The notes below the pieces were generated by a model. That model did not search any database. It had not been told where the DNA came from and saw only the letters and a program-made list of their open reading frames with translations. From positions 16,858,410-16,922,409 of the forward strand of contig NC_089724.1 of NCBI RefSeq assembly GCF_035083965.1: a stretch of 64,000 bases of DNA, in the 5' to 3' direction. A program made the translations under genes and the position numbers. Of this stretch, positions 4,331-62,864 are shown one piece after another. Source of the stretch: Branchiostoma lanceolatum. Its lineage: Eukaryota; Chordata; Leptocardii; Amphioxiformes; Branchiostomatidae. Numbering within the stretch: position 1 is the first letter of the stretch; every line of letters begins with the position of its first letter.

Positions 4331-7300
4331 CTAATCCTCTAAGACTATACTAAGCGCCTTCATGTCAGAGAGCTGTTTCTGAAGGTCAGCGTTGTACTGG
4401 TGGTCGGGAGGGGGGTCAGCATCAGCTCCGAGGTCGGACGCCAGCTCACACAGCACCTTGTACACATTACTGTGGTACGCCACCTGGAACAGACGCCAAG
4501 CAAAGAGGGTAACGGGAACGTTACATCTGTAATCTAATTATGTATTATCTGGACCTGATGTCATTGAAATATCAGCCTCTTGGTACTGAAGATCCCTTGA
4601 ATATAATGTGTATAATTTAAGATTACTGATATGACCAGGTTTCAAAGTCAAAAAAGCAAAGAGAGGATCAAATATTGGAGTCCCATGTACAAATGTCAGC
4701 ATAGCCAATGAAATGAAAATATACATGTAATTGGTATACACTAACACAACAGTAATAGACACAGTAATGAGGGGAAGGTACATGTACCATTTTGCCAATT
4801 TCTGACCAGCCCAAAAGTCTTGTTCCCTTCAGTAGACAAGTATTCACAAAACTAGCCAAGGACCATATCCATTTGTGTTGGCAGAATTCTGTAGTTTTAA
4901 CATGATAGCTGCTCTACCTGAGATTTAAGTAGTGCCTCAAAGCATGGTTGGAAATAGTCGATCCTCCCGTCGTAGAACTGTGGCATCTCCTCCATCAGAG
5001 TGGAGTTCTGCACCTCGAAGTCGTCCTTGGCTGCCGACAGGGCCTTCTTACCCTGGGGGAGGGAGAAAAAGTGGCTCTTGTAACTAAAGCTCTGTGCCTG
5101 AGTACAAAACTTAGTTTATATCTTTTACAATAATGTGGTTAGGTCATGTTATCTGCCTGAATGCAAGAGAACCTGAAAAGTTATTGACAAATGATATTTT
5201 TTGTGGGTAGGCTTTTGACAATAAAGCAAGACACTAAACTTCAAGTGACATTTAGATCCAGAACTTCTTTTAACCATTCCCTTGGCAGCTAACATTCAGA
5301 CCGCTAATCACAATCTTGTTATCATTGTTCAGCAATGATGACAAAGTACTAATGTTCTAATGAGTAAGGTATGGGACAAAATATAGTGCTCTCAGTGTGC
5401 TATCTAGTTTGGGAATGTACCATTTTATAAAAGGTAGTACCTACCTGCTCCAGTTTGACAATATTTGGTCCCGTTCTCTCCTTCTCTTGCAGTTTCTCTA
5501 CCTTCAGTTGCTGTCGGCTGTACTCCTGGGGATGGGAATTGCACAGGAATGGTACATAATATAGACTACGTACTAATAGTACGTAGTATGCAAGAAGAGT
5601 ACAGAGGCAGAAATGATACTATTGGGATGCACAGAGCAATTACACTCAAAATCTGCAATCCACTGCAAATATTAACAAATTAGTTTCATAAAATACAAAA
5701 CAATGAGGTCTGACTTGCACGACTACCTGCAATACTATCACTGTTACTTAGGGGGCGTTATTGCACTGTCAATAGAGTTTGACCTGGCCATTAATTTCCA
5801 GACATCCACTAACCTGAAGACTCTGTTCCCTTTTTCTGATGGCACTGTTAGCCTGGGGGAAGATGTTGGTAAACCTAAAACAACAACAGCAAAAACACTA
5901 TAAAATTTACTGAGATGTTAGTATAGAAAATACCATTTTCAACCAATCTACCAGTTCCTATTTCTTGTAGTGGGGGTAAAAATATCACAACTGTAAAATA
6001 GGTAGATTGGTTGACAATGGCATTTTCTTTGGCTTTAGCCATAGAAGTTAAAACAACCCAGTTTTTCAAAACATAGGTTACACTTAATGTCAAGTATGAA
6101 TAGATGATTGGGACACGATAATCATTTTTTCATTCTCACAACACTAGTGCATGTATTTCATGTATCTTACTCCTTAACTGAATACCATCACTAACGTTAA
6201 CTGTAAACAAAGATGTTTGTGGACACAGCAGTCCCTGACCTGGTCCTGCAGAGACACCAGTAGAAGGTGTGTAACAGTGGGGGTTCAAGCGCCTCCAACT
6301 GACCAGTCTAAACTGTAGAAGGTGTAGTGTATGGAGGTGTGTGTGCAATTCTTTGATTTGTTATAACCCCACCAAAGGGGGGCCAAGAAAAATTAGCCTA
6401 TAGACTCATTGATTGTTCCCCTCCACGGAAATCTTTAGTAAAAGGCGAAAGATTTATGCGTATTTTCTGAAGGGAAACCAGAGTACAGTTTGTGATGGAA
6501 GCAAAAATTGACGGGGTCTCATAAATGAAAATAGTTTTAGTGGCAATTCAGGGACCAAACTTTCTCTCAGAATGTTTCACATGAAAATTGCATTAGAATA
6601 ACTCTCCTTCAACCTTTGAAATAATCATCAAAGAAATTTTTACGTATCCTTAAATGTTTTTACTTTTTTCTGCTTCTGCATCTAATCTACTGGATAAACA
6701 TGTTCACCACCAAGAGTCACTATGCCTGCTGGGATATTATAATTAGGTGGTCACATGACCGACCACAGTCATGTGACCTGTAATGGCGGCGCACCTGTTT
6801 GCACTCCTATTTATAGCAAACCGGCTGAATGACTGAAAGTATACATAAGTTGTGGCTTCCTACAAAAAACAAACCAATCCTACAAAAAAACATTTAACCA
6901 ATCCAAAAATCAGGAAATCACCCAAAAAAATTCCAGGTAACAGGAATGGAATCATCATATCATACCATAATTATCCACACATTTAGTGCATTACTAGATG
7001 CATCTGAAGGAATTTTAAAATATGTACAGTACTAAGAAACTTTTTGGTTTTAGAAAGGCATCATGAACGCAATGATCTGAATCTCAGTTTTTTTAAATGA
7101 AACTTTTAGTGAAAGGAGAAGTAGGATGATAAGAAAAGAACTCATTCCCAGGCCAAGTTTTGGGTCACACTAAGCCATCAGTGATGACATTGCTGTCAGA
7201 TTTTTCTGGGTCAGGAATAATGAACTTTTGTTGTTGTTGTTATTCTTTTTCATAAATGATAAATCAACTTTTTTTTTTTATCATTCCACAAGGGGAGAGA

Positions 7301-10300
7301 GTCTATATTTTTGCAATTGCACCTAGTCCCACTACTACATTTCAGAAACTTGAATACATGCCCATGGAAATTCCCACATAATATTACAGCATACCGGCAT
7401 ACATGCCCCAAATCAAGAGACTGTGAGTCCTCCGTAAAAGAAAAGAAGAAGAAGAAACAAAGTGTCTTCTGTGTTACACATGAAGCCCTCTGAAGGTCTC
7501 TTGTCTCTTACACTAAAGAGTAAAACAATAAAATTACCTTTCCAAATTATGAAGGAAAACATAATAACGTATATCTCTAATTCATTACAGTATTTCATAA
7601 CTTTTCTTACCTTTTCATTGGTTCAATGACAGTCTTTTGACTATTGGTGTTCTGAAACAGACACAACAGGTCAGATCAAATGCCACAAACTTCAGTGAAG
7701 TTTTATTTTTCTCTGTGGATGAATGACTTCTAGAGGAAAAACCTTATCTGAATGACCAAAATTGACACAAAGTAGCAAATGTAAATATTTCCCCTGGCAG
7801 ATGCAAGTAATTTTTGAAACTCACCAATTCCTGAGAAAACCCCTCCAACTTAGCTGTTGTGGCTCCCACTGCCTCTGCCTGGAGAGACAAAAAATCAAAC
7901 TTTTCTATAGAACTATAGAATGTTTCGCTGGTTGAAATCTCTATTCAAACAAGTGTAGAAGCTGTATGTGAATAATTGGAAGGTTTTATTTTTGGCACAC
8001 CTCGTTCCTCAGCATGTCTTCTCCCTGACACGTGGACACGAGATCCTGACCCAGCTTTGACTCACACTTCGACAGCGCTACAGATGAAAACAGAAACAAC
8101 AGGCCTCAGTAATCAATAAACCGTTCTAATCCTTGTCGTTGCGGACAGAGACAATTATCTGTACACAAATGAGAACAACAGCTAGACATGATTGCTGTGT
8201 CCTCAAGGTTAAAAAAACAACTCTTCCATAATAAGGCCATAAGACAGTTACAACAGATGGTACATAACTATTTCTGCAGTTTCAGTAGAATGAAATACTT
8301 TTTGTACGTCAGTACTATACAAATGTGTTTGCATTGAGTAAAATGTCAAAAGAGAGTCACTATATATCACGTTGCAACAGCATACAGAACATTATGATTG
8401 GCTGCAAGCGTTAATCATAGAAAACACATGTATGATGTAGCAAAAACATTTCTATGGTTTCAGCAAATGACTAAACAAAGTACGCTTTGTAAACACGATG
8501 AGCCTTTGGCACCATACTCGCACTCCATAGGACGGGACTGTAACGACTAAGTGTAGTAACAATCTATGTAAACCAGCTATAGGACTAAATAACAGAACCG
8601 CTACATCCTTTCATCAAAAGCACAGAAAACACAACAGTTTACAGATCTGTACAAACCGTGTACACAGACACAATGGCTTCTTGTCATCTTTTCAGGACAG
8701 ATTAGGAGTTTAGAACTCCCACATATCTGCTCATTACTGCTACACTGTGTACATAGAACAGTTCTGTGTACACGGCATGCAGACTGTGGGAACTATGGAC
8801 TAATCCTGTTGGATGATGAACACAACCCCTACATCTGTCTCTAAAGATACAATAATAGCAGTCTGCAGTCGCCATTTCTATGAAACTCTTATATAACCGA
8901 TCTAATATTAGTGCTATTATAGCATGAAGGAATAGTAGTATGCAGTTTTGTGTAATGTGTAGGTAAGATTCTAATTTTGCGTAACGTGTAGTCAGCCCTC
9001 TCTGAACCCCCCATGAAGATCCTCAAAGATATATGATACACTTGTGACCACAGAAAAATGAGCAAGCTTTTTTGTATTGTTACAACATAAGATTTAAGTC
9101 TCTGTCGTTACCTGCGACTGCCTCTGTACATTTCCTCATGTCTTTGTATAATTTTTTAGTGGATTCATCCAGCCTGCAAAACAGGAGCAAATCCAGTTAC
9201 ATGTATAAAACATCAGAATAAAAGCTCACATAGATAGATCATAGCAACAATACATCAGACAAGTCTGACCCAAGACCTGATCTTTTAAGCTTGGTTACTG
9301 CCATTCAATATGGATATTATTATCACAAAAGACTTTCAACCTTCTTTGAAGAAGAAATATCATAAAACCAAATCAAAAAGAAAAAAACTACAGGACACCT
9401 GGTAACATCTTCATATTGAAAACTCTTATATCTACATAAACACAGTCTGGAAAACTCTTACTAAAAGTAGGCTTGTTTCGTCGACTTATCAAAACTAGGG
9501 AAGGTATGACTTTGAGTTTTCCAGTTTAAATTTGTGTTTGGCAAGGATGCATTTTAAACCCCACCTTAATTATTTAACCTGTACATTAGTGACTCATAGA
9601 TGAACTCAATCAATGCAAAACACCTAGATGCCCCTCTATTCCAATTTCAAAAGTAAAATAGCCTGTTTTATGCCAATGATATTGTTTTACTATTTACAAT
9701 TTCAAGAGTGGACAGGATCTGCAGAATGCCATTTACACTCTTGGTCAATATTGCTGACAATGGACACTAACCATCAACCTTGTGAAAACCAAAATAATAA
9801 CTCAAACAGGACAGGCCATTTATTCTCTTTTAGGCCACAGCAAGTAAATTTGATGAATGACATCAGCGCAAGCATTGATTTTTGCCTGATTTTAAAATAA
9901 AAAAACAACAATTTTTTCACCGTTTGACAATGGTCAATATACCGAAAACGGGGCAATGTGTTTCAAACGTCTGTCAGGTGACCTGGTCCATTGCAAAAAC
10001 GTTCTAGATGCCGTAAAAGGCATTCGCACATGTAGGACTGGTGAAAAGTTGGTACAAATGTGTTGCACAAATAAGATTGCTCCTCGTCACCAACTTACAG
10101 GAGGAAACAGTGCAGCCCTCATGCCAAATTTGTAATTGGAATTAGTCTGTAATTGCTACAGCCATTATTATCAACAAGTGCAATCCAATGTGTTTTCTTG
10201 AATGAAGTGAAGTACTAACAAAACCCATTACAGGGTCAGATGAAATAAGTAATGTTATGCGGTTTGAGTATACCATTGTCTAGCTGTCTGTCTGTCTATT

Positions 10301-13300
10301 GAAGACAGAATAAAATGACGGGGGGTTTCTGAGGCACGGAAATTCAAGCAGACAGTCAGGACAGCAATAGCGGACAGAATTTCAGTTTAGATTGAGTGAG
10401 CAAAGCCAGCATAATTTAGTCACAGTTAGTCTGCCGCATGACTCGGGAGACTCCAGTGCCCAGTGTAGGGGAAACCTTGTCCCTGTGTTCTTGATGTTCT
10501 ATACTAACCCGGATCTAAATTTATAATGATTTTTATGTTGACATCATTGTTAGTTACTGTTTTATTGAATACAGGTATAAAAGACTTGTTGGTTGTTATA
10601 CCATGTTTTATCACTTCAATTCTTGTTACAATATGCAAGTTTGAAAATGTGGATATCTTGTTTTTTTTGCCCGCCTTGTTTTTTTTTGCCAAAGCACACT
10701 AAATTTGGAGTCTGCAGAGGTTGTTATCCATAAGATTTACCTGCTGTGGCCTTATAATAGTAATGCAATATCTTTATAAGCAAATGAGAATCTCCCTACT
10801 GTGCCAGTTTGGTACACTCCCGCTCGAAGTCCTTCTCAACTGTCTTGGAGATAACCGTTCTCTTGGGGGACGCAGAAAGACGGTTGAACGGATTCCTGAT
10901 CGTGTAGATAAAGACATGCATAAAAGTTACATGGCCTGTGTGTACCAGGATTTATTTTCCCTACATAGATATGTGACATTATATTATATCATACACCGCT
11001 CAATGAAAATCTGAGGGGGCTATAAAATAGTACATTTGGTGTTGGGGATTAAGAAACGGTCATGTGAAATTTCTACACAATAGGCAGGGTCCATCTATTC
11101 TGTTTGTTCACACTTCCTGTGCCTCTCTTTCCTGAGGTTAACATTCCATTAACTTCCATTAACCTACTACAATCTATAGGTGCAACTAATGTCTATCAGA
11201 CTCTATGTGCCAAAAAATTGGTGCTGGTGTGCATGTGATAAGGTCGCAGAACACAGTATTAATGGGCGACCCCCGTGGACAATAGTAGTTCGGGTATGAA
11301 GTAGTGCGTCACATTACTTGAAAAGGCCATAGTTTTTCTTCTGTGCACGTTAGCGAGGCTGAAACTGTGGTGAATGGTAGAGGAATACGTCAGTTTTGAG
11401 ACAGTACGAGTTTGATTACGATGTTTGTTCGGTCGGGTTGGATTCGCGCCTGGATATTGTTACCGCCCGACTACTGTAAGTCGCCTGCAGTACGGTGACC
11501 TCCGCCGGGGGGCATATCAAAGTGGCTTTTAAAAGAGAACGAGCCGGCAAATTCAACCTCATTTTGCAGATATTTTGTAGATTGAACCTTGAAGTCAAGC
11601 ATATAAAAATCTGGTACCCTAATTCTGCACCTTTCTATAAATTTTCAAGCGTCGAAGCATCTCACCTTGGGATCCTTAACTATATAAATCCCTATAGGAG
11701 AAATACTGTGGTCTGCAACCTTAACCCCCAGCGGAGATTGGCCATAAACGTTGCATTCGGTCAAATTTTACTGGTGTATCAGTAATTGACGTCGACTCAC
11801 TTGAAATCGGTCGTTTTTGTTGCCGCCAGACCCGCCGTTGCCATGGCAACGGCCTCTAAGACCGCCCCCTATCCTTAACTATAGGACTTGGTGTGGACCC
11901 GGACACCGCTTCTCCCCCCCCCCCCTGCGTCGTAACTAACCATGAACCTGACCTAAAATCACTTAGAACTTAAGAATATACACTAATGATACCTTCCACG
12001 AAAAAAAACCCCATCAGAATAGTAATTTTGTCTAGATAATGAGAGCGCTAAATGGCCCGTCATACAGGCCTTGCCCTGGGTCTTCCCCTATGCCGGGTCC
12101 TGAAGTGCAAAGCTGGCGATATCTCGGCAACCGTTCGGATGTTTGCAAAAAGCTTTGGTACACTTCTTCAACTAAACCTGTTACATTGCATGAACAAAAG
12201 AAAACCAAGGTCAAGGTCGTCTTAACCCCCAGCGGAGATTGGCCATAAACGTTGCATTCGGTCAAATTTTACTGGTGTATCAGTAATTGACGTCGACTCA
12301 CTTGAAATCGGTCGTTTTTGTTGCCGCCAGACCCGCCGTTGCCATGGCAACGGCCTCTAAGACCGCCCCCTATCCTTAACTATAGGACTTGGTGTGGACC
12401 AGGACACCGCTTCTCCCCCCCCCCCCCCCCCTGCGTCGTAACTAACCATGAACCTGACCTAAAATCACTTAGAACTTAAGAATATACACTAATGATACCT
12501 TCCACGAAAAAAAAACCCATCAGAATAGTAATTTTGTCTAGATAATGAGAGCGCTAAATGGCCCGTCATACAGGCCTTGCCCTGGGTCTTCCCCTATGCC
12601 GGGTCCTGAAGTGCAAAGCTGGCGATATCTCGGCAACCGTTCGGATGTTTGCAAAAAGCTTTGGTACACTTCTTCAACTAAACCTGTTACATTGCATGAA
12701 CAAAAGAAAACCAAGGTCAAGGTCGTCTTAAGGTCGCAGAACACAGTATTAATGGGCGACCCCCGTGGACAATAGTAGTTCGGGTATGAAGTAGTGCGTC
12801 ACATTACTTGAAAAGGCCATAGTTTTTCTTCTGTGCACGTTAGCGAGGCTGAAACTGTGGTGAATGGTAGAGGAATACGTCAGTTTTGAGACAGTACGAG
12901 TTTGATTACGATGTTTGTTCGGTCGGGTTGGATTCGCGCCTGGATATTGTTACCGCCCGACTACTGTAAGTCGCCTGCAGTACGGTGACCTCCGCCGGGG
13001 GGCATATCAAAGTGGCTTTTAAAAGAGAACGAGCCGGCAAATTCAACCTCATTTTGCAGATATTTTGTAGATTGAACCTTGAAGTCAAGCATATAAAAAT
13101 CTGGTACCCTAATTCTGCACCTTTCTATAAATTTTCAAGCGTCGAAGCATCTCACCTTGGGATCCTTAACTATATAAATCCCTATAGGAGAAATACTGTG
13201 GTCTGCAACCATAAGCTAAATAGGAGTAGTGGTCAAATGGTTCAAATTCAGTTTAGGCTGGTATTCGTCTAATCTTGGCGACTTAAAACCTTGCTGATTG

Positions 13301-13502
13301 TGAAAATGAAAAAAAAAGAGATTAATTCCAGATTTCGTAAAATTCTTCTGCCATAAATTTGAAGAAGTTAATGATTAACCAGAACTAAAAGGGAATGTTT
13401 GTTTTGCAAGTTTGACAAATCGCCACGCCCAAAAACCACCTCCTGACTGTCCTTACACAGAACACAACACAACTTAACTGCCAAGGATTCTTACCAACTC
13501 AT
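4331..13502 (-). CDS. BIN3: Bridging integrator 3, BAR-domain membrane-curvature protein
   Basis: Ten coding exons on the minus strand: 13495-13502, 10800-10895, 9112-9173, 8001-8077, 7825-7878, 7611-7651, 5814-5874, 5445-5525, 4918-5052 and 4331-4483. They total 768 nt (255 residues; human BIN3 is about 253). Every junction is GT-AG and in phase. The protein starts MSWNPFNR and continues KTVEKDFERE. It has the BAR segments EKLQEKERTGPN and MEEMPQFYDGRIDYFQPCFE, and ends ALSIVLED, all matching the family along its length. The BAR domain covers nearly the whole protein and forms a curved dimer on membranes; BIN3 is linked to actin organisation. Intron 1 contains a 2-kb repeat composite and intron 2 a Harbinger-like element. 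It is head to head with ADO, 331 bp apart. Confidence 0.95.
9833..10751 (+). mobile_element. Harbinger-like non-autonomous DNA transposon, copy 1 (BIN3 intron 2)
   Basis: The left end reads GGCCACAGCAAGTAAATTT. The right end is its inverted counterpart (AGATTTACCTGCTGTGGCC), with TTA on both sides as target duplication. GGCC ends with a 3-bp TWA duplication are the hallmark of PIF/Harbinger elements. The 919-bp interior encodes nothing recognisable. It ends 48 bases from a BIN3 exon. Related copies lie at 20546-21729 and, inverted, at 38322-39077. Confidence 0.8.
11242..13210. repeat. A-B-B-A repeat composite in BIN3 intron 1
   Basis: Unit A (479 bp) occurs at 11242-11720 and 12732-13210, same orientation and length, with no difference noticed. 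Between them unit B occurs twice, at 11725-12221 and 12226-12727 (497 and 502 bp, differing mainly in homopolymer length). TTAA sits at all three inner junctions (11721, 12222, 12728). ATAA flanks both outer ends (11238-11241 and 13211-13214). Unit A has 19-bp terminal inverted repeats, GGTCGCAGAACACAGTATT against GGTTGCAGACCACAGTATT. Unit B has no obvious inverted ends. A diverged end of unit A recurs at 58325-58406, so A is a dispersed family. The near identity implies a recent origin. Confidence 0.85.
11834..11853. promoter_or_regulatory. Perfect palindromic X-box (RFX-type site) inside repeat B, copy 1
   Basis: GCCGTTGCCATGGCAACGGC is a 20-bp perfect palindrome. Its core GTTGCCATGGCAAC matches the RFX X-box consensus on both half-sites. 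The second copy is at 12335-12354. Binding and function are inferred from the motif only. Confidence 0.5.
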
Positions 13503-13833
13503 GGTGTTGACTGTTTGCCGATCAAGGTTGTATTATTGGCCACAAAACAACTCAAAATACGACATTTTTCTGCAACGGAAACACCTCCTGACAGTACGAC
13601 CTCTGACCCATTAGATGGAATATTCCACTGGTGGTTAATATTTCCTGACTGAATTCGAGCCGTTTGGATATCTTTTACTGAAAATTTTGTACCCATTAGC
13701 TAATCAATATTTACAGTAAAAATCATGTTGGTAATATTTAGTTACGATTAGACTTTTCTGTTATCATTTGATTGTTTTCACTTTCTGATTACCCTTTCTG
13801 GATAATGTGATCGTCGTGACGTCAAATTCCATC
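13503..13833. promoter_or_regulatory. Divergent BIN3/ADO promoter region
   Basis: These 331 bases separate the BIN3 start codon (minus) from the ADO start codon (plus), so the two genes probably share a bidirectional promoter. A perfect CRE palindrome, TGACGTCA, lies at 13817-13824, nine bases before the ADO ATG. No TATA box is obvious for either direction. An open frame running back from BIN3 here is not coding. Confidence 0.65.
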
Positions 13834-14583
13834 ATGGCGGCCTTGGTGGAAAAAATCGCCAAGCAGGCACTTCAAACGTTTGACTTCGCGTCTCCGCATT
13901 GGGAGCGGTCTCTGAAAGACAACTTCATCAGGCTGACGTCCCTCATGAACCAGCTGACCTACCGGGACGTCAGCATCCAGCCCAGAACGGCGGAAACGCC
14001 GCTGAGAAGGTCTCTCCGCGGACGGCCAGCGTCGAACGATGACCCCGCCCCGGTCACGTACATGCCCATCTGTAACCACGACTTCTTCACCATGGGGATC
14101 TTCCTTCTGAAGGGCGGGGAAAGGATCCCTCTACACGACCATCCGGAGATGCATGGCGTCTGTAGAGTCCTGTACGGCACTGTGTTGATCCGATCGTACA
14201 ACAGGCTCGACCCCTCCACCACAACACAACCCCCTCTCCCCGAGTTCGACACCCCCCTCTCGCCATGGCAACGCAACTATCTCTTACCCTGCACGGCAAA
14301 TGGAGAGATTCAGCTGACCGAGAAGAGCGACGCGTGCATCTTGGAGCCTCTGAGAGGGAACCTGCACGAGATCGTGGCCGTGGACGGACCGGCCGCGTTC
14401 TTAGACGTCCTCGCCCCTCCTTACGACCACGACGGCTCCACGGACAGAGACTGTCACTACTACCGCCCGCTCGTCCCTCAGGACCCCGTGCAGACAGACG
14501 TGCACTGGCTAATGAGAATATCTCAGCCGAGAGACTTCTGGTGCGACGCAGAGCCATACCCCGGACCGTCTGTGTCAGTTTGA
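13834..14583 (+). CDS. ADO: Cysteamine (2-aminoethanethiol) / N-terminal-cysteine dioxygenase
   Basis: A single exon encodes 249 residues of the PCO/ADO cupin family. The enzyme uses non-haem iron to add O2 to cysteamine (giving hypotaurine) and to N-terminal cysteines of target proteins, making it an oxygen-sensing degradation switch. LHDHPEMHG supplies two iron ligands, His101 and His103; NLHEIVA supplies the third, His178. Cys207-x-Tyr209 in DCHYYRPL matches the Cys-x-Tyr pair that is cross-linked in human ADO. The chosen ATG is in good context (atcATGG) and begins MAALVEKIAKQALQTF; an in-frame ATG at 13807 would add nine residues and overlap the CRE. Absence of introns is shared with the vertebrate gene. 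GC content is well above the surrounding DNA, as for the other coding exons. Confidence 0.97.
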   Translation: MAALVEKIAKQALQTFDFASPHWERSLKDNFIRLTSLMNQLTYRDVSIQPRTAETPLRRSLRGRPASNDDPAPVTYMPICNHDFFTMGIFLLKGGERIPLHDHPEMHGVCRVLYGTVLIRSYNRLDPSTTTQPPLPEFDTPLSPWQRNYLLPCTANGEIQLTEKSDACILEPLRGNLHEIVAVDGPAAFLDVLAPPYDHDGSTDRDCHYYRPLVPQDPVQTDVHWLMRISQPRDFWCDAEPYPGPSVSV

Positions 14584-25671: not shown

Positions 25672-25689
25672 AGGAGGCTAACCCGTATA

Positions 25690-28790: not shown

Positions 28791-30660
<1,870 letters not shown>

Positions 30661-30850: not shown

Positions 30851-31299
30851 CTTATATTCTGGATTCGTGTGACGTCGGGAAAATTCGGTGGCCAATCAGA
30901 GGCCGTCGGTTCCGTGTTGTCCTAGTGACGTCAGATGACGTCTGTATAAATAAAAGATTACAAATTGGCTCAATGAAAATTGATAGCGCTCGCCGTATAT
31001 GACGATGACGCTTCAATGCGAGCTTCCGATGCGGAAGAACAAAAATAAAACAAGTGCTTGAGACCAGAAGCCATTTTTTGTGTGAAAAAATCTAGTTTTA
31101 AAGCATTTTCTTTTGATATTTGGTCACCTGATTCGCAGACCACCCTACAATTATTTATTGACTTTAGGCGGGCCACTTTGACAGGCCCCTTTGTCTCTTG
31201 GGGTCGGCACCGGAACCTAGCCATACCAAATATGGGCATAGAGCTGGGAGAGGCTGCAACGTCACAAATCGTCGGGGCTCAGCGACGCACCATATTTGG
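30851..31299 (-). promoter_or_regulatory. EGR: EGR promoter: TATA, CCAAT, CRE and two CArG boxes
   Basis: Reading away from the gene: TATA-like AATATAAG (minus, 30851-30858), a TGACGTC half-site near 30868-30875, a CCAAT box (30892-30896), a perfect CRE TGACGTCA (30926-30933) followed by TGACGTCT (30936-30943), CArG box CCAAATATGG (31226-31235) with an ETS core CCGGAA 10 bp away (31210-31215), and a second CArG box CCATATTTGG (31290-31299). Both CArG boxes fit CC(A/T)6GG exactly. Vertebrate Egr1 is induced through the same site classes (SRF with ETS-type ternary complex factors, and CREB). The 5' UTR should be about 165 bases if the TATA-like element is used. Confidence 0.7.
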
Positions 31300-43268: not shown

Positions 43269-43320
43269 CAGATACTGTAATGTGATATACGCCAGCATCA
43301 ACCGCCCACACCTGTTACCT

Positions 43321-51225: not shown

Positions 51226-51416
51226 TTACTCTTTGTTTTCTGCTGTAAATTCTGTAGCAGCCACAGGGCCTTCAAGGTCAGCTGCAAACGCTGGAAGGTC
51301 AAACTGCCCGCGACCATTGCTGTTCAAGGTCTTGTCCTGGCCTGGTTGCAGGCGGTAGAGGAAGAACTGGTAGCGATGTGGACCAGATCGTCCAGGTGGT
51401 GTTGGATCTGCGTAAC
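51226..51416 (-). other. PEBP4: PEBP4-like alternative terminal exon 4B (no ER tail)
   Basis: It follows a strong pyrimidine-rich acceptor (cctcctctccgttgctag) and begins with two bases completing a Ser codon, in the same phase as 4A. It reads YADPTPPGRSGPHRYQF, ends TEFTAENKE and stops. No retention signal is present, so this isoform should be secreted. A minus-strand ATTAAA (51164-51169) lies 57 bases past the stop. Confidence 0.8.
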
Positions 51417-54400
51417 CTAGCAACGGAGAGGAGGAAGACCATCACTTGTGGCTGAGGCTACAAGTATGACATAAGGCTACGGATATCGTTCTGACGTGGC
51501 CGATGTATGTTGTGCTCTTCCACGAATCTGAGAAATATACCTTTATCATCCCACTAATTTGGTTGATTACAGAAGTCTGTTGCATCTCCTTTTTCAGCTC
51601 AAAGATCATTCTGTTTGCTGAATGGGGATATCAAGATATGTGGTGTTTGTGCAGAAGTCGTTGCATCTTTGTTCCTGGTTTTGGCACTGAATTTTCGCTA
51701 ACAATCTTAATCGTACATGTAGGGTACTGGCATTTGTTCAGTCTTCAAACTTTGAATGACTGCAGAAGTTAAAAATAATCAAAGAATAAGTAACGAATGA
51801 AGTGGTTCAGGTGAGGACAAAGGCATTTATTACTTCAAAGCACAGAATGTACACTAGCTTCAAGCTGTAGCAAGTTACACTTTTCACTTTTACTAGTTTT
51901 AGCTAATCTGCTACAGAACAAATCTGTAGAGCACCCTCCAGAAAAATGACAGATGATGAAATATTAACTGTTGCTAATATGCAATATTTTGAATCCAGTG
52001 ACTTGGTGACTCTTGCTGAAGTGGCAAAAGGCACCATTACTACTTGACCTTGCACTATGACCTTTGCACCACAACCTTGTTGCACCACGAAATTTGCACA
52101 ATGACCTTGCCCCTGAGTCTGCTTACTACAATGAGAGGGAAAGAACAACGCAGCCTTGTTCCATTTCTCCTCATTAGAAACCTGCGAAGACATCTATGGA
52201 GGGAGAAAGATTGTGATCAGAAGGAACATATTCCGCCCCATCACCAGCGCTCCGTGGAGGTACCCAGACTGACCCTGCAGCAGGTGTAAAAGCATGCAAA
52301 ACACAAAAGACAATGCATAATGGCAGTTATGTAGTGTATGAAGACAGACTGAAATGCTACAAGTTTCTATTCAGTAGTAGTCCCTTATTTATGAGGCTGA
52401 AAAAGACCATGACAACAATAAAGAAAGCATTCAACAGGAAAGATAGAGCAGTATTCATAGTTCCTTTAGATTCTTTGAACTGTACTTAGAATACTGTCAC
52501 CAGGCATCAGAAACAACTGATTTTATCATGCATGAATATTCTCTTATATTTTTAAAAGTAATCAATACAAAACCAACACATTAAAAATTTCATGACCACA
52601 GTATCATTCTGTTGCATCATAACTAAAAATGTAGCTTTTCCCCACAACAAAGACAGTATTTCACTAAGCTTAATAATAAGATTTCTTGGTTCAGCAGGCC
52701 ATTGTTATACTAGTACATTCCGTCAGGAATGAATGTTATTCTTGTTACAAAAAATCTAAGGTTAGAGTTCATCTCGATCTCCAGCATTCTCTGTTACAAA
52801 CTCAGTAGCGGCTATCGGGGTCTCGAATTTCATCTCCTGCAGGAAAGCCTGTAGGTCAAACTTGCCGCGGTGTTTCTGCTGTTCCTGAGTGAGTATTATG
52901 GGATGTGTGGGTGGCTCCAGAAAGAGGAGAAACTGGTAGCGATGGCGGCCCGAGCCTGGGGGCGGGGTGGGGGGTTCATAGGCTGCAGTGTCGAGCCAGG
53001 TGGGAAAAAATGTCAGAAATCACAGACATTCACAGACAATTCACAGACAAGGTTTAGCCTTACAGTCAAGATTTCATAAAAATACATGTAGTAGGTACAA
53101 AACATGTTATGTAATGATGAACCTTGATAAAATCAGGCACTTTATGATCATGATGGATGAAAGTCTTGAATTAAAGCACTCAAGGTGGCACTGAAAAAGA
53201 ATTGAGTGATCACCACCTACACACTAAAGCTGGAGACTGTAAAGATCACAACCTTGACCCCATATGTTGCTAACATGTTCACATTGTATCTATTCAAGTC
53301 TGAACAACACAGCAGGAGAACCATCTGAATAAAGAAGAGGCCATGTATATGTGAGTTTTGGTTTGAAAACAGACTTAGTCCAACTTTCAGGCAGAGACTG
53401 GCCAGCTTCAAACATCCAAACTTTTCTCCTTACCTTTTTTTAAAATTTGATTAAATCTTGTTTCTTAAAAAAGGCTTTTAATTAAAAAGGTAAAGCCTAA
53501 CGGTAGTCCCATGGCCATTTTGAGGCCATAGGGGCAGTGGGATATTATCCACTGTGTGGCATGTCAGAGGATTTGAACCCAGCACCTCTGGGCTCTGGGC
53601 CAAACACCCTAACCATTACACCAACACAATGCTGCTTGTTTTCTTCAGCAGACCTTGATTCTTGAATTTGAGTTTCTTGACAATGTCATCCATGAAATTA
53701 TGTTCAAGTTGCCTTATTTGTTAACAACATTCACTATCAGATTTCCCATCCAAGTAATTTGAATGCTACCACAAATACACATACTTGTCAAGATGTTTCC
53801 AAATCCAGTGGAACCCCAGTCCTTACTCTGTATACCTTTCTGCAAATCATCACCCTGTGGAAGAGACAACAGTGTTGTTACCTCTCCAAGGTAACAAAAG
53901 AAGAAATGTATGAAACAAATCTCCAAGCAGATGTAAGGATCCAGCTCAGTCTTTGTGCCTTACATCTGTTTCTGTAACATTCAATAAAATTATTCTTTTC
54001 TAGGACTAGTTTTTAACAGTTGTGTCTTTGTGCCTTATATCTGTTTCTGTAACATTCAATAAAATTATTCTTTTCTAGAACTAGTTTTTAACAGTTCGCC
54101 GTCTCCTAAATGTTCCAAAAACCAGGCGCAAAACACTGAGAATGAGCTGGGTCCTTACATATGATTGGAAATAAATAAGAAACTTCATGACTGTTCCTTG
54201 ATCTCTTCTAGCAGCTTGTATATCATGCACACCATACACAGTTTGGGTATTTTTATTCTCTTTTCCACTGACATCCACAGTTGCACAATGTTTGTCTGTT
54301 TAATTTTAGTGATACATACTGACAATCTGTACATATTTCTTAAAAACATAACAGAAGTATAAAGGTAGGATCAGTGTCACCCACACAGCCAAAATTGCGC

Positions 54401-55972
54401 AGAACTCAGTATCATGATGCCTTTATCCCATAGCCTGGAGTCCAGCCTTTTTACTTTTGGTCCAGATCTGCTCCCATGGCAACATCGCTACCACGCCAAA
54501 AAGACGTTGGAAGCAGACCAAAGCTAAGAATGCTGGACTCCAGGCTATCTACATGTATCCCAATCCCTAAAAGTTAAACAGTACAAAAATTCACATTTTT
54601 AAAAAAAAGTCTTACCGAGATGAAAGTGACCAGCCAGTGTCGCCAGTACTTCATTTGAGGGTTTTTAGCTGAGGGGGCATCAGGGTCAACCATTGCAAGC
54701 AGGTAGCGGGAGCCCTGCAGGGACAAATAAACAAATTAGTACACAACAAAACACCACCATGACGAGCATAATGATCAGTCAGGGTCTTTTGTTACATTTT
54801 GCAAATCAATCAATAATTTGGATTATAAAGAATTAGACTGATCCATTTACTGAATTTTGTAAATTGGTTTGTATAAATACAATCTTTATTCAATCATTGA
54901 CACAACAAAATTACAGCAACTTTCGTAAGTTCTACTACATCTAAATAATTCTATACATACCTACATACAAACAGATACAAGTGGATACAAATTAAGTAAC
55001 GTACATACAAGTACAGTATACAGTGTGAAAAAACGTTAATCTCATGTTGAGATTAACGTTTTTTCACACTACTGATTCTTTATTAGCTATTACGTGATTT
55101 ATACGTCTAAACAATCTTAGATGTATCTACCTTTTTGTACACAGTAAGGGTTATCTCCTCCTAAAGTGTACTTAGTTACGTTAGTATTGCATTTATTCAT
55201 AGAATGGAATATACTAAACTGTACAAGCATTAAATAGAATCCTAAAAACTTTTTATATGAAGTATCTATCATGTGATGCCACTGACATATTTCACATTTT
55301 GTCAATAGACTTCATGGTAAATCAGCTAAAAAGCACCAAAAATTTGAAGAAAAAAAATAGTTTATACAATTTGGTGATGTGCAGACACAATTATAGACGT
55401 ACTAGTACACTACACTACTACTAGTAGTATGTACAGTCCGAAGTTTTAAATGAACAACTTGTTTCAACTACCAACCCGGATACACCTGTTTACCCACCAA
55501 ACACCTGGCGTGACGTCAGGCAACTTTCACTGCTGCGTTATATAACTATAGTATAGGCAACAAAAACAAATTATGGCCGCGCCACGTCACAATTTTTTTT
55601 TTTTTACTTTCCCTTTTTCAACAATATCAAACTTTGGTCATGGTGTGACGGGAGAGAGTGCATTGTTAGTCTTTGTACAAGATATGTTTTATAATACCAA
55701 GGAGGTTTAATTAATACCTTCTCTGCGTGTTCGTACTTGACGGAGGGGGGCCGACTGTGGAACAACCCCAGTGGGACGTCCTGGCCGCAGAGAACCGGGC
55801 CGTTCATAAAGTCATACTGGACGGTTAGAATTTTGTCTTCTCCTTGGCTGCATACCGCCTGGTCTATCCCTCTCTGATCTTTCAACACGTCTTCTCCTGG
55901 GGTAACGAAGTAAAGCAATGTGACAAAAGTGACAAAACACACGCCCACCGTCAACTTCAACTTCGACGCCAT
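51226..55972 (-). CDS. PEBP4: Secretory PEBP-family protein (PEBP4-like) with two alternative terminal exons
   Basis: Exons on the minus strand are 55718-55972, 54616-54714, 53785-53854, then either 52762-52982 (4A) or 51226-51416 (4B). Totals are 645 nt (214 residues) or 615 nt (204 residues). All junctions are GT-AG and in phase. The N-terminus MASKLKLTVGVCFVTFVTLLYF is a signal peptide or anchor. Exon 2 gives DPDAPS (residues 95-100) and WRHWLV, and exon 4 gives SG-x-HRYQF, the core PEBP ligand-site motifs. Exon 3 gives GDDLQKGIQ, matching the GADLKKG-type segment of vertebrate PEBP4. PEBP4 fits best by its signal peptide, the YQF motif and synteny. PEBP proteins bind phosphatidylethanolamine-like anions; the exact ligand here is unknown. 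It is head to head with NRBF2. Confidence 0.9.
51826..51831 (-). terminator. Candidate polyadenylation signal for the exon 4A transcript
   Basis: The minus strand reads AATAAA here, 930 bases beyond the exon 4A stop codon and 410 bases before exon 4B. Its position fits use of 4A as a true last exon. Confidence 0.45.
52762..52982 (-). other. PEBP4: PEBP4-like alternative terminal exon 4A (ends RDEL)
   Basis: It follows a good acceptor (ctcgacactgcag) and begins with two bases completing a Thr codon. It reads YEPPTPPPGSGRHRYQF, ends TENAGDRDEL and stops. RDEL is a KDEL-type ER-retrieval tail; with the signal peptide it predicts an ER-resident isoform. A minus-strand AATAAA at 51826-51831 lies between this exon and 4B and could end this transcript. 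Confidence 0.8.
53499..53634 (-). repeat. tRNA-derived SINE
   Basis: On the minus strand, TTGGTGTAATGGTTAGGGTG resembles a polymerase III A box region. It is followed about 35 bases later by GGGTTCAAATCC, a B box. Non-tRNA sequence and a short T-rich end (CTTTACCTTTTT) follow. The spacing is that of a tRNA, but the arms do not form a full cloverleaf. It lies in PEBP4-like intron 3. Confidence 0.7.
53641..53720. repeat. Degraded Harbinger-like end
   Basis: AATGTCATCCATGAAATTATGTT then AAGTTGCCTTATTTG resembles the right end of the Harbinger-like copies (GTCATCCATAAAATTTACTTG then CTGTGGCCTTAT), with several mismatches. Only one end is present. Confidence 0.35.
53917..54097. repeat. Short foldback followed by a 75-bp tandem duplication
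   Basis: AATCTCCAAGCAGATGTAAGG pairs with CCTTACATCTG, a minimal member of the foldback family. A 75-bp unit starting GTCTTTGTGCCTTACATCTG is then repeated once (53949-54023 and 54024-54097) with a few substitutions. It is intronic in PEBP4-like. Confidence 0.7.
54430..54548. mobile_element. 119-bp foldback element with TAGCCTGGAGTCC ends
   Basis: ATAGCCTGGAGTCCAGC and GCTGGACTCCAGGCTAT are perfect 17-bp inverted ends. Inner segments (CTTTTTACTTTTGGTC and similar) pair partially. It shares the TAGCCTGG terminus with 2773 and 17187 and is intronic in PEBP4-like. Confidence 0.8.
55022..55070. repeat. Perfect 23-bp inverted repeat with 3-base loop
   Basis: The arms 55022-55044 and 55048-55070 (beginning AGTGTGAAAAAACGTTAATC) are exact reverse complements around TGT. 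It lies in PEBP4-like intron 1. It would be a strong cruciform or RNA hairpin and could be a decayed MITE core. Confidence 0.85.
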
Positions 55973-56483: not shown

Positions 56484-59400
56484 ATGTCTGTCGAAGATTC
56501 TTCTCCGTTGAATCTGGTAGGTATACGTTATACTCAAACATTTAGCATATCATCAGGATTGAATACAGTTCAACGTATCATAATTTGTTTGAATTGGTGA
56601 GGAAGAATTACACCCACAACAGTGTAAAAACAGGTGCTTGTGTGGGTGGGTGGGTGGGTGGGTGTAGACTAGTTATAACAAGGGGGAGGGGGAAATCTAT
56701 TCTTGTTTTCTCGTATCGCAATCAGAAGAATTAGCTGACATCAAGTAATTAGAACACATTGGGTTGACTTCACGCTAACATTTAAGACGAACAATCAATC
56801 TTACTTGCCAGACGTTGGTCAAAATTTGTGTATGCGCGATATAGATGAAGGGTGAAAATCGACATGTTCGTATGTTACTATGAGATGACAGCATGTCTAC
56901 ACTTTTCATCTTCATATGTCTACACGACATTTCATGCTATTGTGTGCTTCCATGCTGTCACATTTCTGTGTGTTTTACTTCTCGCAAGTTTTTTCTGACA
57001 TGTTAGACTGTCAGAGATCAGTTGACATTACTTTATTAATAAGAAATTATGTACCTCATGTCACCTGTCACCTGAATGCGATGTAAACCCACTATTGCAT
57101 TATGTCACTGTATAAATGATTTTTGACAGGCTAGCCTGTCAATAGCGGGGTAAGAATCCTTATTGACAGGCTAGCCTGTCAACAGCCTCTGTCATAACTG
57201 AATACCGTCTTCGGGAAGGAATTAATTAAGGCACCAGGCCTGTAGAACCCTGGTCTTCACTCCTGCAGTTCTCACATGTTGTACTATTCTCACTTTCTTG
57301 GTAACCATACCATTGGAAGCTGCTCGGCACAGCTACGCTATGGTGTTAGGCATTAGCTTCTACTGGACAGCATTAATCAGAAAGGGTGGCTGGAAAGATA
57401 GGCAGTCACAAAAAGCCTGGATGCTCAGCAGCCTGGGGCCAGCCCATAGGAATGGTTACCAGGCTATACTACCACCTACTGACTGATAATGTCCCCCAGT
57501 GTGGGATGATACCACCCACGGTTAGATAGATGCCACCCACTCTTGGAAATGATATTACACCCACTGTAGGATGAATGACACCCACCTGTAAGTTGTAAAT
57601 ACAATGTATGTAATGTAAACCGCTGTCAGTCATGATGAAACACACTTTGAACTAGGATAATCATGCCAGTGGTGTTTAGATAGATTTAACCCTCCATGGG
57701 TTAATGTCACTCACTGTTAGATACCATAAATCATGAGACTTGGTGGTTTTATTTTTGCATTTCTTGCAGTGACCTCTCTACTGCAAATTCATGACACTGG
57801 AATGTGTCTAATCATTGCATGACTACTAGCAGTGACTAGTAATGTACTACAGAAGTGTTTCAACCACAAATGTAAAATACAGCAAAATTTCCGTTCCCTC
57901 CTACCGCGAAATGAAACCACCATGAAACTAAGTGAATCTACAGTAGATATAACACAATGTCAGATGAATGTGACCTATTTTTTGATCATCAACATCATGC
58001 CATGGTGTCATCACTCCTGAGGATCTCTAGATCTCCATGACTGACTCCAGTTTTTCCTTGTCTTGCCAATCTTAGCCATATGGGGCCCATGCAGGTGTCT
58101 GATACTGTCACCCGATGTTGGATAAATTGCTAACAACATGTATTTGATACATCATGTTACCCACTGTGAAATAATGTTACCCACTGTATAAGGGTTAACT
58201 TTAATTTTAAGGTATACCAGGGCAGTTAGATGTGGATGACTTTGATTGATTCATTCATTCGTTACTATTATAGTATAGGTTGTACTTAAGATTCTTGTAC
58301 TTTCCTTGTGCACCCAGAGTGCTACGTTGAGGCGTTGAACCTTCTCACTTTGGGGTCCTACACCATATAAAACCCTATAGGCGAAATACTGTGTTCCAGC
58401 TGCTACCTTGACATTCACTAACATGTTGTGCTCCCCCCCCCGCCACCCCCCATAGGCTCACCAGCAGGGTCGCCATGCCGACCGGCTGCTGACTGCCGGC
58501 AGGTACCATGATGCAATAGTCTGTCACGAGAAGGCTGCAGGTAAACTCACCTGTTCTCGTCTTTTATTTGCCTCCCAAGTTATGAGTAAGCATTATCTTC
58601 ACATTGTTTCATGTACTTATTATAACTGGTTCTTCCTCATGTTGTATCAAAGAGGAATGAAATGTTGTTGTATGTATTTCCAGATCACCTGCTGAGAGCG
58701 ATGAAGATGACGTCTGTACCGCAGGTGTGCGCTTCCATTGTGGGAATATGTTCATAGATCGGGATAATTTGATGATTTGTCCTTTTTCATACATCTTGCT
58801 TTTGTCACTCTCTGACAGAAAAAGAATAATAGGGTATGACATTTGACATGTACTGTAAAATTCAATGATATTGGTTGGCCAGGATGTTGGCACTCCTTTT
58901 TCACACATCTTGCCCCATGGATTCTCTGTGACCAGAGGAATACTGTAATAGAATGACAAATACATGGATTTCAATTGTTTGATGTACCTGTTGTCAGGAT
59001 GGTGACATTTGCATACTAGTATGCAGCAAAATCTGTAATTTGTCAACGTGACTCGTTACTTTTGTTGTCAGTCAGTCCTATGCCTTTGATCTATACTGCA
59101 TGACAAACAGTTTGTTTAGGTCGTCCCAAAGAAACATAACTTCTCACTGTAAACATCCTGATTTCTTTGGCTCACAGACGTGACTGTTTGTATGCCACTA
59201 AGTTATTGGAACAGATCACCCTGTAGCCTATAAGCACCGCTGTATTTAAGAATCCTATTTATAAACTTAAGATCATACAGTGTTAGTCAGCGGAACACAT
59301 TACCTTGTAGTCTGTAAACACTAACGTACTTACAAGTCTCACTTGTATATACTGAAGAGGCAGCAAGACAAGTAATGGCATTAATCCTAAGACAGTGGAA

Positions 59401-62400
59401 TACTTAAGGGTCTCGTTGTAAGACTTGAGGAGTGTAAGAAGATGAAAAACTTCCTGGTGCAGGGTGGGCTTACAGGGGAAGAAGAGGCTATACCAACTGG
59501 AAGTGAAGTGGGGAGGGACAGGGCTGTTTATTTGGCACTAATCTGTGAAGCTTTGTTCTATAATCCCTGTTGTTATTTTGGGCTGGGAAATAAATAAATT
59601 ACAGGATCTGCTGTATGCACTAGTGCATGTATCTAAACTTTGTTGCTACCTTAAATATCACATTTGGTTATGATACAATATATTGAAATTCGAATTAAGG
59701 CAACACACTGAAGCCTATCTTATTAATATTACATAGTATAAACAATGTTTTAAAAACTATCTGATGAGGAAACTCCTGCCACAATCACTATATTTCACTG
59801 GCCCCCACAGAATCAATAAGATAGTTATCACAGTGCAGAATTAAGTTTTTTTGTCATCCCACATGTATTCTTTGCTTTACAAACCTGTGTCCACCCACAA
59901 GTCTACAGTGAAGTGCACTCCTGTCGTCGCCTGTCAACACTCGCAGAGGAAGTCCTTCATCATTATCTGTTTACTTACAAGATAATTACATGTGATATCA
60001 ATTAATTATTTCTGCCCATCATTATGTCTAGTCCTGTGGTAACATCCTGTTATTATCCCACATAATATGGCTGGGAACACAACAGACATGACTGTCAATC
60101 AACAGTCTGTCAGATGACTAATTAACAAGAATCATTTGTTGACATGACCTCTGTGAGAGACTGTGTGAATCCCTGTTAAAGCATATTCAAGGCTCTAAAT
60201 TGTGCACCCAAAATAGGAGCTGTGCACCTACATGTTATATCTAGGTAGACCCTCTGGCAGTCAATGTAACTGTTGACTGCCAGAGGGTCTACCTAGATAT
60301 TTGTATAGGGTTTAATACACTATTATACACTATTATACAGCATATTCTTGACATTTAGATGTCAGAAGAAATAACATGTTAGCTGTATGTAGAAGCTACA
60401 TGATTAGCTATAGAATTTCAGATTCGAGCTCTGGAGGTTTGCAACTTAAATCTATGCTGTGCACCAAATTTTTCTGGAAAATTAAATTTTTAGGCTAGGT
60501 GCACCAGTGCCCATAATCCCCAAAATTGATTTCAAGCCCTGATATTTTTTGGTTATCTCTTTGGCTGTTCAGTTAACCGACCATTTATTATTTTCCAAAT
60601 GATGGGGACAGCAAGCAGCAGAACACTTGCACAGATTCTTGAACCTTGTTTGCTCTACCAATAATCCCTTTTCTTAATCCTCACCAGCAGATTATGATCT
60701 ATCTCTTATCTGTCAGAGATACTAGCCTTGTCTCAACTGTTTGTTATGAAACTTGTGGGAAAATGATTTGTGATAACCTTCATCCTGACAGACAAGCAGA
60801 TAATGATCTAATCCAAGTTAATGGTTCTAATGAAGTGCCACAAGTCGACATCATCCATGGGGTGATGGCAAGTCAGGATAAACAGGTTGTTTCCCACTAT
60901 GATCAATACTGATCCACAATTACTGTCAATACAGTGAGCTTGTTTATATACCAGACATGCTCTTCACTGATACTTAATTGTCTCTTCAGTGATACCAGAC
61001 TACATGCGGGTTGGGGTTTTGTGCGCGTGAGAAATTTGCGCGTGAAAAACTTGTGCGTGAAAAACTTGTGCGTGAAAAATTTGCGCGTGAAAAAATAAAG
61101 TTCAAGAAATGTGTCAGAAAATGTGCGCCACAAAATTCTTAGTCAGAAAAATGTTACCCCATGATATGATTTTGCATCTGTTTCCTGAATCTTGGGTTTG
61201 AATTTCAGGTCCCTTGGGAATATCTAAGCTGACTCTCAAGGGATTTAAAACCTTTTTGGAGGTTTTAAGCTTCAAACTTGAAATAAGATGACCCACAATG
61301 GAATTAAGTATCTTAATGTTGCATTCTAAAGTTCAAAATGTTGTTCTTTCAATCTTCAAGTGATTTTTAAGTGATTTTCAAATGTCAAGTTTTCACACAC
61401 AAAAAAGTTTGAAATTTGCGTGTGAAAGAATCTGTTTGAGAAGAGATGAAATTAGGCTAATAGAATGGGGAAAAGCTTCAAATAGTTACATTTTACAATA
61501 CAAAACCTTATATAAGTAAGTTGACTGTATTTCTTAAAGATTTAAGTGATTTTCAAATGTTTAGGTTTCAAGCCCCAAAAAGTTTAACTATTCCCAAGGG
61601 ACCTATTCCCAAAGGACTTAAAAATCAAAACTTTTCAAACCATAATTTCAGGTGTCTGATGAAGTGTATCACGAGATCACATTTTCCTGTCCAAGAAAAT
61701 TATACTGCACATTTTCTGACACATTTTTAAAAAGTTATTTTTTCACGCTCAAATTTTCACGCGCAACTTTTTCACGCGCTGAAAACCTGTTCCCCTACAA
61801 GCCATCCAGTTAGGCAAACTGGGATGTTGACAATGTTGCCACTGGCAAGGGACATAAAATTTTTGATCTGACAAAATCTGACTCTGAATAGTGTCTTTCA
61901 AATTGTCTCAAAGACTGTTCTTCACACTCTGTTATAAGAGATTAAGGCTTTGTACAAGTGATGATGATGATGTATTTCGGAAACAAAACTAAATCATCCT
62001 AGACTTCAGGAAAATATTAACCCAGCAAGTTTCATGTTCCAAAAGAATATAATTGTATTTAGCAGTTAAGTGTGAGAGTTACAAATTTGTCTCCCAAACT
62101 TTTCCGTTCCCTTTCCTCCCCAGGCCCTGACGTCCCTCCAGTTACAGCACAAGTTCCACTTCAAGCAGCGGGACATTATCAGGGAGAAGCACCGGAGGGC
62201 AGAGAGTTACAAGAAGTACCTGGAGCAGCGGGAGAAGGAGGCCCAGAAGAAAGCGCAGGCTGCAAAGGAGCTCAAGGAGCTCCGCGATGCCGAGGAGCAG
62301 TTACAGAAGAATCTCGCATCCAACGCAGAGAGAGACAGCGAAGTCGAATCAGAGCCAGATGAAGAAGAAAATGAAACGAACAGCGACGACGAAACTGATC

Positions 62401-62864
62401 AGGGTAGAAGTAACGAAAAAAGCGTCATACATGACGGCGAGCCAGATTCGCTACTTCAGTTTTTAAACAAGGATGGCCGCCGTGACAAATTCAGCAGCAG
62501 CGTCCACGCGGCGACAAAAGCGCCAAAAAACGCCGAGGAGAAAATGGAAGAACTGAAAACAAGTAACCATCAGCTCCAGGACCATGTCTCCTCGCTCCTG
62601 CAGGAACTAGAGAAGACTAAACATGAACTCCACTCTGTCAAGTCCGAAAATAAACAGTTGAGACGTACTGTAGACATCCTCACCACTCAGATAGAGCGAT
62701 ACGTCGCAGAGGATAGGAAGAGGGCGGGGCAGGACCTGTCCGTCAGCATCCGTCCAGCTTTTTCCACAAGCGACTCATTCGATGAGCAGATAAGCCCTCC
62801 GTCTGAGATCCCACCATTGGCCCCGCTTGAGATACCAGACTTTGACTTTGATTCTTTTAAGTGA
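56484..62864 (+). CDS. NRBF2: Nuclear receptor-binding factor 2, autophagy PI3K-complex subunit
   Basis: Four coding exons, 56484-56516, 58456-58540, 58684-58724 and 62124-62864, give 900 nt (299 residues; human about 287). All splice sites are GT-AG and in phase. Exon 1 is MSVEDSSPLNL, parallel to the vertebrate first exon ending GPLNL. Exon 2 starts AHQQGRHADRLL and continues GRYHDAIVCHEKAA, the MIT-like N-terminal domain. Exon 4 has a charged helix (RDIIREKHRRAESYKKYLE), an acidic linker (SEPDEEENETNSDDE), a coiled coil at about residues 194-230 (LQELEKTKHELHSVK) and an acidic Pro-rich end (PPLAPLEIPDFDFDSF). In vertebrates NRBF2 binds ATG14 and VPS15 in the class III PI3K complex and promotes autophagosome formation. 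The tiny first exon is inferred from phase and resemblance. Confidence 0.93.
56640..56665. repeat. (GGTG)n microsatellite in NRBF2 intron 1
   Basis: About six tandem GGTG tetranucleotides, 120 bases downstream of exon 1. Confidence 0.85.
57123..57182. promoter_or_regulatory. Two identical 20-bp palindromes 40 bp apart
   Basis: TTGACAGGCTAGCCTGTCAA is a perfect palindrome. It occurs at 57123-57142 and 57163-57182, exactly 40 bp apart (about four helical turns), in NRBF2 intron 1. This resembles a paired homodimer-binding site, or the two ends of a very short element. No factor is assigned. Confidence 0.45.
58325..58406 (+). repeat. Diverged end of the unit-A repeat family
   Basis: AACCTTCTCACTTTGGGGTC, ATATAAAACCCTATAGGCGA and AATACTGTGTTCCAGCTGC align with the right end of repeat A at 11650-11720 with many substitutions. 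It ends about 50 bases before the NRBF2 exon 2 acceptor. Confidence 0.6.
60237..60300. repeat. Perfect 28-bp inverted repeat with 8-base loop
   Basis: The arms 60237-60264 and 60273-60300 (beginning ATATCTAGGTAGACCCTCTG) are exact complements around TGTAACTG. GTGCACC motifs flank it at 60200-60230 and near 60456 and 60500, so it may be the core of a larger degraded element. NRBF2 intron 3. Confidence 0.85.
61012..61795. repeat. Inverted-repeat element with GCGCGTGAAA ends, copy 2
   Basis: The left side has about five 15-bp units of CGTGAAAAACTTGTG type (61026-61095). The right side has the complementary TTTTCACGCGCAACTTTTTC (61741-61779). Inner inverted segments (TCCCTTGGGAAT against ATTCCCAAGGGA) continue the symmetry. 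It is homologous to 47108-47532 in the opposite orientation and lies in NRBF2 intron 3. The source family is not recognised. Confidence 0.65.

Follow-up and report, generated by a model that had tools for sequence, protein, structure and literature searches.

The stretch of 64,000 nucleotides studied here (contig NC_089724.1, positions 16,858,410 to 16,922,409 of the forward strand), hereafter the window, carries an EGR gene together with four neighbours. Between positions 4331 and 62864 complete models were established for BIN3 (-), ADO (+), EGR (-), a PEBP4-like gene (-) and NRBF2 (+), in that order. For these models the window was probed with human protein sequences, missing exons were sought by a splice-site search and the exon boundaries were then fixed; the introns are GT...AG throughout and internal stops are absent from every model. 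Some comparison sequences were provisional versions, namely human BIN3, yeast Rvs161, PEBP4, the fingers of EGR2-4 and pieces of RHOBTB2. An earlier reading of the same DNA from its letters alone (the sequence-only reading) had proposed this gene content, order and orientation, which are borne out by the splice models of all five genes, and had placed the ends of the block exactly, at the final bases of the stop codons of BIN3 (4331) and NRBF2 (62864). While order and strands stood, that reading had overlooked that the four neighbours form two head-to-head pairs, BIN3/ADO and PEBP/NRBF2, around a lone EGR. This layout of pair, EGR and pair is new here. Gene content, order, strands, intron structure and head-to-head spacing can be read directly from the following features:

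4331..13502, minus strand: BIN3, ten coding exons, 255 aa, splice model
13502-13495, 10895-10800, 9173-9112, 8077-8001, 7878-7825, minus strand: BIN3 exons 1-5
7651-7611, 5874-5814, 5525-5445, 5052-4918, 4483-4331, minus strand: BIN3 exons 6-10
13503..13833, no strand: BIN3/ADO start-codon interval, 331 bp, candidate bidirectional promoter
13834..14583, plus strand: ADO (2-aminoethanethiol dioxygenase), intronless, 249 aa
28791..30660, minus strand: EGR, two coding exons (30660-30408, 29917-28791), 459 aa, three C2H2 fingers
30926..31299, no strand: EGR upstream region with a cAMP response element (CRE, 30926-30933) and CArG boxes (31226-31235, 31290-31299)
51226..51416, minus strand: second copy of the last PEBP4-like exon, in identical intron phase, candidate alternative terminal exon
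52762..55972, minus strand: PEBP4-like gene, exons 55972-55718, 54714-54616, 53854-53827, 52982-52762, 200 aa
55973..56483, no strand: PEBP/NRBF2 start-codon interval, 511 bp, candidate bidirectional promoter
56484..62864, plus strand: NRBF2, exons 56484-56516, 58456-58540, 58684-58724, 62124-62864, 299 aa

BIN3, ADO, EGR and NRBF2 are firmly assigned, and for these four genes the earlier labels hold. The BIN3 product contains a BAR domain (Pfam, 1.8e-25) and has amphiphysin as its closest solved relative (1.8e-14). It is identical to the provisional human BIN3 at 116 of 251 aligned residues and scores 228.8 bits against it, versus 56.3 bits for the best amphiphysin stretch. The gene-tree check suggested by the sequence-only reading places it in the BIN3/Rvs161 clade, apart from amphiphysin/BIN1: in a tree of seven rows it joins human BIN3 (support 98/99) and then yeast Rvs161 (100/100). 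A forced grouping with amphiphysin/BIN1 was rejected (p-value of the approximately unbiased test, p-AU, 0.022). The product is a BAR-only protein beginning with MSW; exon 1 encodes these three residues only and is the sole combination of MSW with a GTRAG donor when both strands of the window are searched. The first exon or start of human BIN3 and of Rvs161 is presumably MSW likewise. The ADO product carries a PCO_ADO domain (1.9e-50) and matches mouse ADO at 1.4e-56, versus 2.6e-21 for a plant cysteine oxidase (PCO). In the NRBF2 product the MIT domain (NRBF2_MIT, PF17169, 1.1e-25) is followed by the NRBF2 coiled-coil part, whose model PF08961 is matched at 3.6e-06 with 27.1 bits, under the cut-off of 36.8; the closest solved relative is the human NRBF2 chain (1.5e-21).

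The EGR gene is identified by three EGR-type C2H2 fingers, the RKYPNR linker in the alignment and one intron, of which the linker and the single intron are what we take to be features of the family. Among the three alignments printed from the search against solved chains, the top single stretch is that of EGR1 (188.3 bits), which two multi-finger ZNF568 chains outrank solely by summed stretches. Over 82 finger positions the window EGR is identical to human EGR1 at 78, to EGR2 at 76, to EGR3 at 71 and to EGR4 at 65, the human EGR1 fingers being confirmed against the solved chain and those of EGR2-4 provisional. Positions 4, 5, 58 and 61 hold residues seen in none of the four human EGRs, and within the same 82 positions neither the EGR2-only state (Y61) nor the EGR3-only states (S37, E60, F61, A76) occur. 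These states would fit an EGR older than the vertebrate split, yet an affinity to the EGR1 side would be compatible with them as well. Two CArG boxes and the palindromic CRE lie at most 640 bp from the EGR start codon; when 30661-31310 was Markov-shuffled 5000 times, only 2 of the shuffled sequences had at least two CArG boxes, and the whole window holds seven CArG and seven CRE sites. The upstream region thereby appears to resemble the promoter of an immediate-early gene, the type known from vertebrate EGR genes. EGR itself is isolated, with 14.2 kb to ADO and 20.6 kb to the nearest PEBP exon.

In a bidirectional gene pair, by definition, transcription starts in opposite directions from sites no more than about 1 kb apart. 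From their spacing, both start-codon intervals of the window may act as bidirectional promoters; motif support is thin because the two intervals hold few promoter motifs. The BIN3/ADO interval contains one CRE (13817-13824), a single CCAAT and, at the start of ADO, ATGGCGGC; in the PEBP/NRBF2 interval there are AT-rich, TATA-like words and, at the start of PEBP, AAAATGGCG. According to PMC6292497, bidirectional promoters account for 25% of neighbouring protein-coding genes in amphioxus, and stem vertebrates lost 54.5% of the 372 that are putatively ancestral. The two window pairs, each split in human, fit this published loss; judged by start-codon spacing, they would be further cases or would be among the 372.

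For the comparison with human, the strands of the block genes are those that we assume. The sequence-only reading had interleaved two human blocks, ADO-EGR2-NRBF2 on chromosome 10 and BIN3-EGR3-PEBP4 on chromosome 8, and the order in the window does combine the two. On human chromosome 10 the labels of single-nucleotide polymorphisms (SNPs) give the order ZNF365, ADO, EGR2, LOC107984012, NRBF2 (PMC5915097). Human 8p21.3 holds BIN3, EGR3, PEBP4 and RHOBTB2 (alphabetical list, PMC4346930), the same four genes share a 1-Mb interval on chicken chromosome 22 (PMC6678660), and a list from sheep runs RHOBTB2, PEBP4, EGR3, BIN3 (PMC9179888). The 10q21 EGR2 block thus has ADO, EGR2, NRBF2 and their order in common with the window, and the 8p21.3 EGR3 block has BIN3, EGR3 and PEBP4, with the order taken from the sheep list and the strands in both cases assumed. 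Unlike the window, 10q21 is not known to contain BIN3 or PEBP4, and 8p21.3 is not known to contain ADO or NRBF2 and does contain RHOBTB2. In each human region, with the strands assumed, the neighbour 3' of EGR is BIN3 or ADO and the one 5' of it is PEBP4 or NRBF2, an arrangement shared by the window. Relative to EGR, each of the four neighbours has the side and the strand of its human counterpart, which given linkage would be expected in 1 case in 256, an arithmetical figure that depends on the assumed human strands and is reached before counting that exactly these four genes are the neighbours. The window neighbours are thus distributed over two human regions with order and strand kept, the human strands being those assumed.

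A relation of the human chromosome 8 block to the vertebrate genome duplications (2R) has been published: EGR3, BIN3, PEBP4 and RHOBTB2, with paralogues on chromosomes 10, 5 and 4, were assigned to a 2R origin within chromosome group C, which draws on human chromosomes 8, 10, 5, 4 and 2, in the case of 10, 5 and 4 with parts of them (PMC3890633). The conserved chromosome 8 block is common to that work and ours, whereas its passages do not name ADO, NRBF2 or an unsplit order, and we infer the tie between its group and 10q21 ourselves. Among the matches listed from the open-licence literature, searched by titles and the starts of abstracts, there was no published report of the unsplit block. An ancestral linkage split by 2R, and likewise the separation of head-to-head pairs, is of a kind already known.

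In our view the window probably represents an unduplicated, pre-2R-like EGR neighbourhood of a non-vertebrate, perhaps an invertebrate chordate such as amphioxus, with two head-to-head pairs, later reciprocal loss and a linkage based on EGR; the pre-2R polarity, the loss history, the regulatory cause and the kind of animal are what we infer. As the two human blocks interleave in the window, reciprocal loss after 2R is the simplest explanation. The ancestral block would have consisted of the pairs BIN3/ADO and PEBP4/NRBF2 around one EGR; after the vertebrate duplications the EGR3 copy would have retained BIN3 and PEBP4 and the EGR2 copy ADO and NRBF2, and this reciprocal loss would have broken both head-to-head pairs. 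Gene loss after duplication is treated in PMC7269912, whose text has no word beginning with egr. The sequence-only reading had already proposed a pre-duplication state with reciprocal loss, for which the interleaved order, the BIN3 tree, the EGR fingers and the published 2R block of chromosome 8 speak, while the moderate PEBP4 orthology and the proximity of the window EGR to EGR1 restrict it. A strand-biased loss, with the EGR3 copy retaining both minus-strand genes, was considered and is not claimed, since it is not significant with two pairs.

What held the genes together is a separate question. Control elements of EGR within and beyond its neighbours would keep bystander genes near EGR, and the short shared intervals would add a second constraint inside each pair; linkage through EGR regulation is plausible, and the head-to-head pairs are a second possible reason for it. 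The same ancestral block could accordingly owe its linkage to the two shared promoter intervals and to slow rearrangement rather than to long-range control of EGR, an explanation to which we give somewhat less than an even chance. Both outer pairs are indeed head-to-head within 331 and 511 bp, and in amphioxus such pairs are common (25%) and enriched for housekeeping functions (PMC6292497). Neither pair is tied to EGR by a shared promoter, however, given the distances to ADO and to the nearest PEBP exon, and the vertebrate neighbours stay by an EGR gene without their partners (PMC5915097, PMC4346930, PMC6678660, PMC9179888). Provided that reciprocal loss split both pairs, a shared promoter cannot explain why BIN3, PEBP4, ADO and NRBF2 lie near vertebrate EGR genes today; that these neighbours remain although their partners are gone would favour EGR control elements as the tie. 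Human SNPs between ADO and EGR2 are listed with an ADO association (PMC5915097), which we take as association with ADO expression and which is in keeping with shared control without being decisive. A regulator gene and unrelated neighbours kept linked across a genome duplication are also the mark of genomic regulatory blocks (Synorth, PMC2745767); the text of that paper has no word beginning with egr. In such blocks conserved noncoding elements of one target gene extend across bystanders, and the window would be comparable to them in its gene linkage. We offer only tentatively, and with more doubt than confidence, the full proposal of a pre-2R EGR regulatory block with a bidirectional promoter at either end, both of which would have been split by 2R, and in which EGR control and not the promoters would have fixed the linkage.

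Several results weigh against the pre-duplication interpretation. The ancestry of the block rests on parsimony. To the left of BIN3 and convergent with it lies a gene that the sequence-only reading had omitted from its list:

1862..3382, plus strand: FAHD1-like gene (fumarylacetoacetate hydrolase family), partial model

The gene shows Pfam FAA_hydrolase matches in 2446-2721 (2e-16) and 3113-3382 (1.2e-20), and the open reading frame (ORF) 1862-2074, which is without a Pfam match, was assigned to it by eye; the scan of this edge covered 3 of 28 listed ORFs, picked as protein-like. The name FAHD1 is one we assume for it. Human FAHD1 is located on chromosome 16 and is not known from either human block, so the conserved block ends or is rearranged left of BIN3. 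The provisional pieces of RHOBTB2 gave no significant match in the window (best E 2.0). As to the intervals, PEBP/NRBF2 is AT-rich (GC content 0.31, observed/expected CpG 0.66), and the motif search found no ETS, SP or NRF1 sites in either of the two. The chromosome 10 locus named in PMC3890633 is 10q25, not 10q21.

The same direction is taken by the tree of the PEBP4-like gene, the weakest label of the earlier reading and one whose orthology is moderate. Its product has a PBP domain (1.4e-15) and PEBP1 as closest solved relative (1.6e-20); it scores 100.3 bits to provisional PEBP4 versus 76.9 to PEBP1, and the reverse search gives 100.7 versus 69.0. In a six-row tree the grouping with PEBP4 is supported by 80/78, with the outgroup FT flagged as a long branch, and a tree joining the gene to PEBP1/PEBP2 was not rejected in this small and partly provisional set (p-AU 0.088). 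Because of the support values, this p-AU and the long-branch outgroup, the identity with PEBP4 is likely but not proven. The block could thus be pre-duplication and yet contain another secreted PEBP paralogue, leaving only BIN3, ADO, EGR and NRBF2 truly in common, and the alternative tree would agree with this, as would the poorly aligned N-terminal half of the product and its duplicated last exon. We regard this as improbable, as PEBP4 is best in both search directions within the set tested, the N-terminus of the window protein is hydrophobic and the gene adjoins EGR just as PEBP4 adjoins EGR3 in the sheep list (PMC9179888). Since the duplicate last exon keeps the intron phase, two alternative C-terminal halves may be made from the gene; the spliced form b with this exon retains a PBP match (3.4e-14), and a splice-site search revealed no convincing further group of upstream PEBP exons that would belong to it. 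PEBP4 likewise begins with a hydrophobic stretch.

The EGR fingers, finally, are nearest EGR1, and Q26 is common to the window EGR and EGR1 alone, although Q26 may be ancestral. Both points would also suit a vertebrate window, with all five genes retained around a single EGR copy, which would then not be pre-duplication. The median observed/expected CpG of the window, however, is 0.71 (500-bp windows), whereas values of about 0.2-0.3 are typical of vertebrates, and ADO is identical to its mouse counterpart at 118 of 234 aligned residues, compared with 201 of 221 between human and mouse. CpG content and ADO divergence argue against a vertebrate origin, the BIN3 identity to provisional human BIN3 (116/251) points the same way, and we hold this reading to be very unlikely. 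That the genes were joined by chance or by secondary rearrangement in the lineage is scarcely credible, since 4/4 neighbours match those of human EGR genes in identity, side and (assumed) strand.

Beside the gene block itself, the introns and intergenic intervals showed some further features. In a BIN3 intron, on the same strand as BIN3, a match to U5 spliceosomal RNA (94.1 bits) is located at 6364-6486 (-), the sole match of an Rfam scan of the window at gathering thresholds; a tRNA scan of the window gave none. Within 11239-13028, in BIN3 intron 1, direct repeats of 206-300 nt occur as three pairs of identical copies, the product either of a recent rearrangement or of faulty assembly.

The gene-poor intervals on both sides of EGR yielded only a gag-like ORF with a CCHC knuckle and a weak zf-RVT match, as judged from a scan of 24 out of 77 ORFs listed with 80 aa or more after low-complexity filtering, so small or split exons may still lie there. 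The gag-like ORF (41464-42462) lies in a GC-rich stretch; in 39815-42462, 205 nt are exactly repeated (39815-40019 and 41470-41674). The zf-RVT match at 25201-25677 (-), with 0.0036 below the cut-off, is probably a retrotransposon fragment. A 167-bp unit is repeated twice at 24699-25026 (99%), and a near-perfect palindrome at 39280-39489 consists of 105-nt arms without spacer (99% complementary). A 145-nt element occurs in direct copies at 20931-21075 and 21333-21477 (96% alike), in an inverted copy at 38571-38715 (97% complementary to 20931-21075) and as a further match at 20664-20808 (63% alike). At the right edge, in the 1.1 kb past NRBF2, no further gene was recognised by Pfam in 8 of the 10 ORFs listed with 50 aa or more; two matches were weak and below cut-off (E 0.04 and 0.063), and no JmjC domain was found among these eight ORFs, JMJD1C not being sought by sequence.

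A block that is split over two human regions offers a way to tell apart two causes of linkage, namely shared promoters, which would have been lost in vertebrates, and distant enhancers, which were possibly kept. This bears on the true targets of human regulatory variants near ADO, NRBF2, BIN3 and PEBP4, genes that may be bystanders of EGR control.

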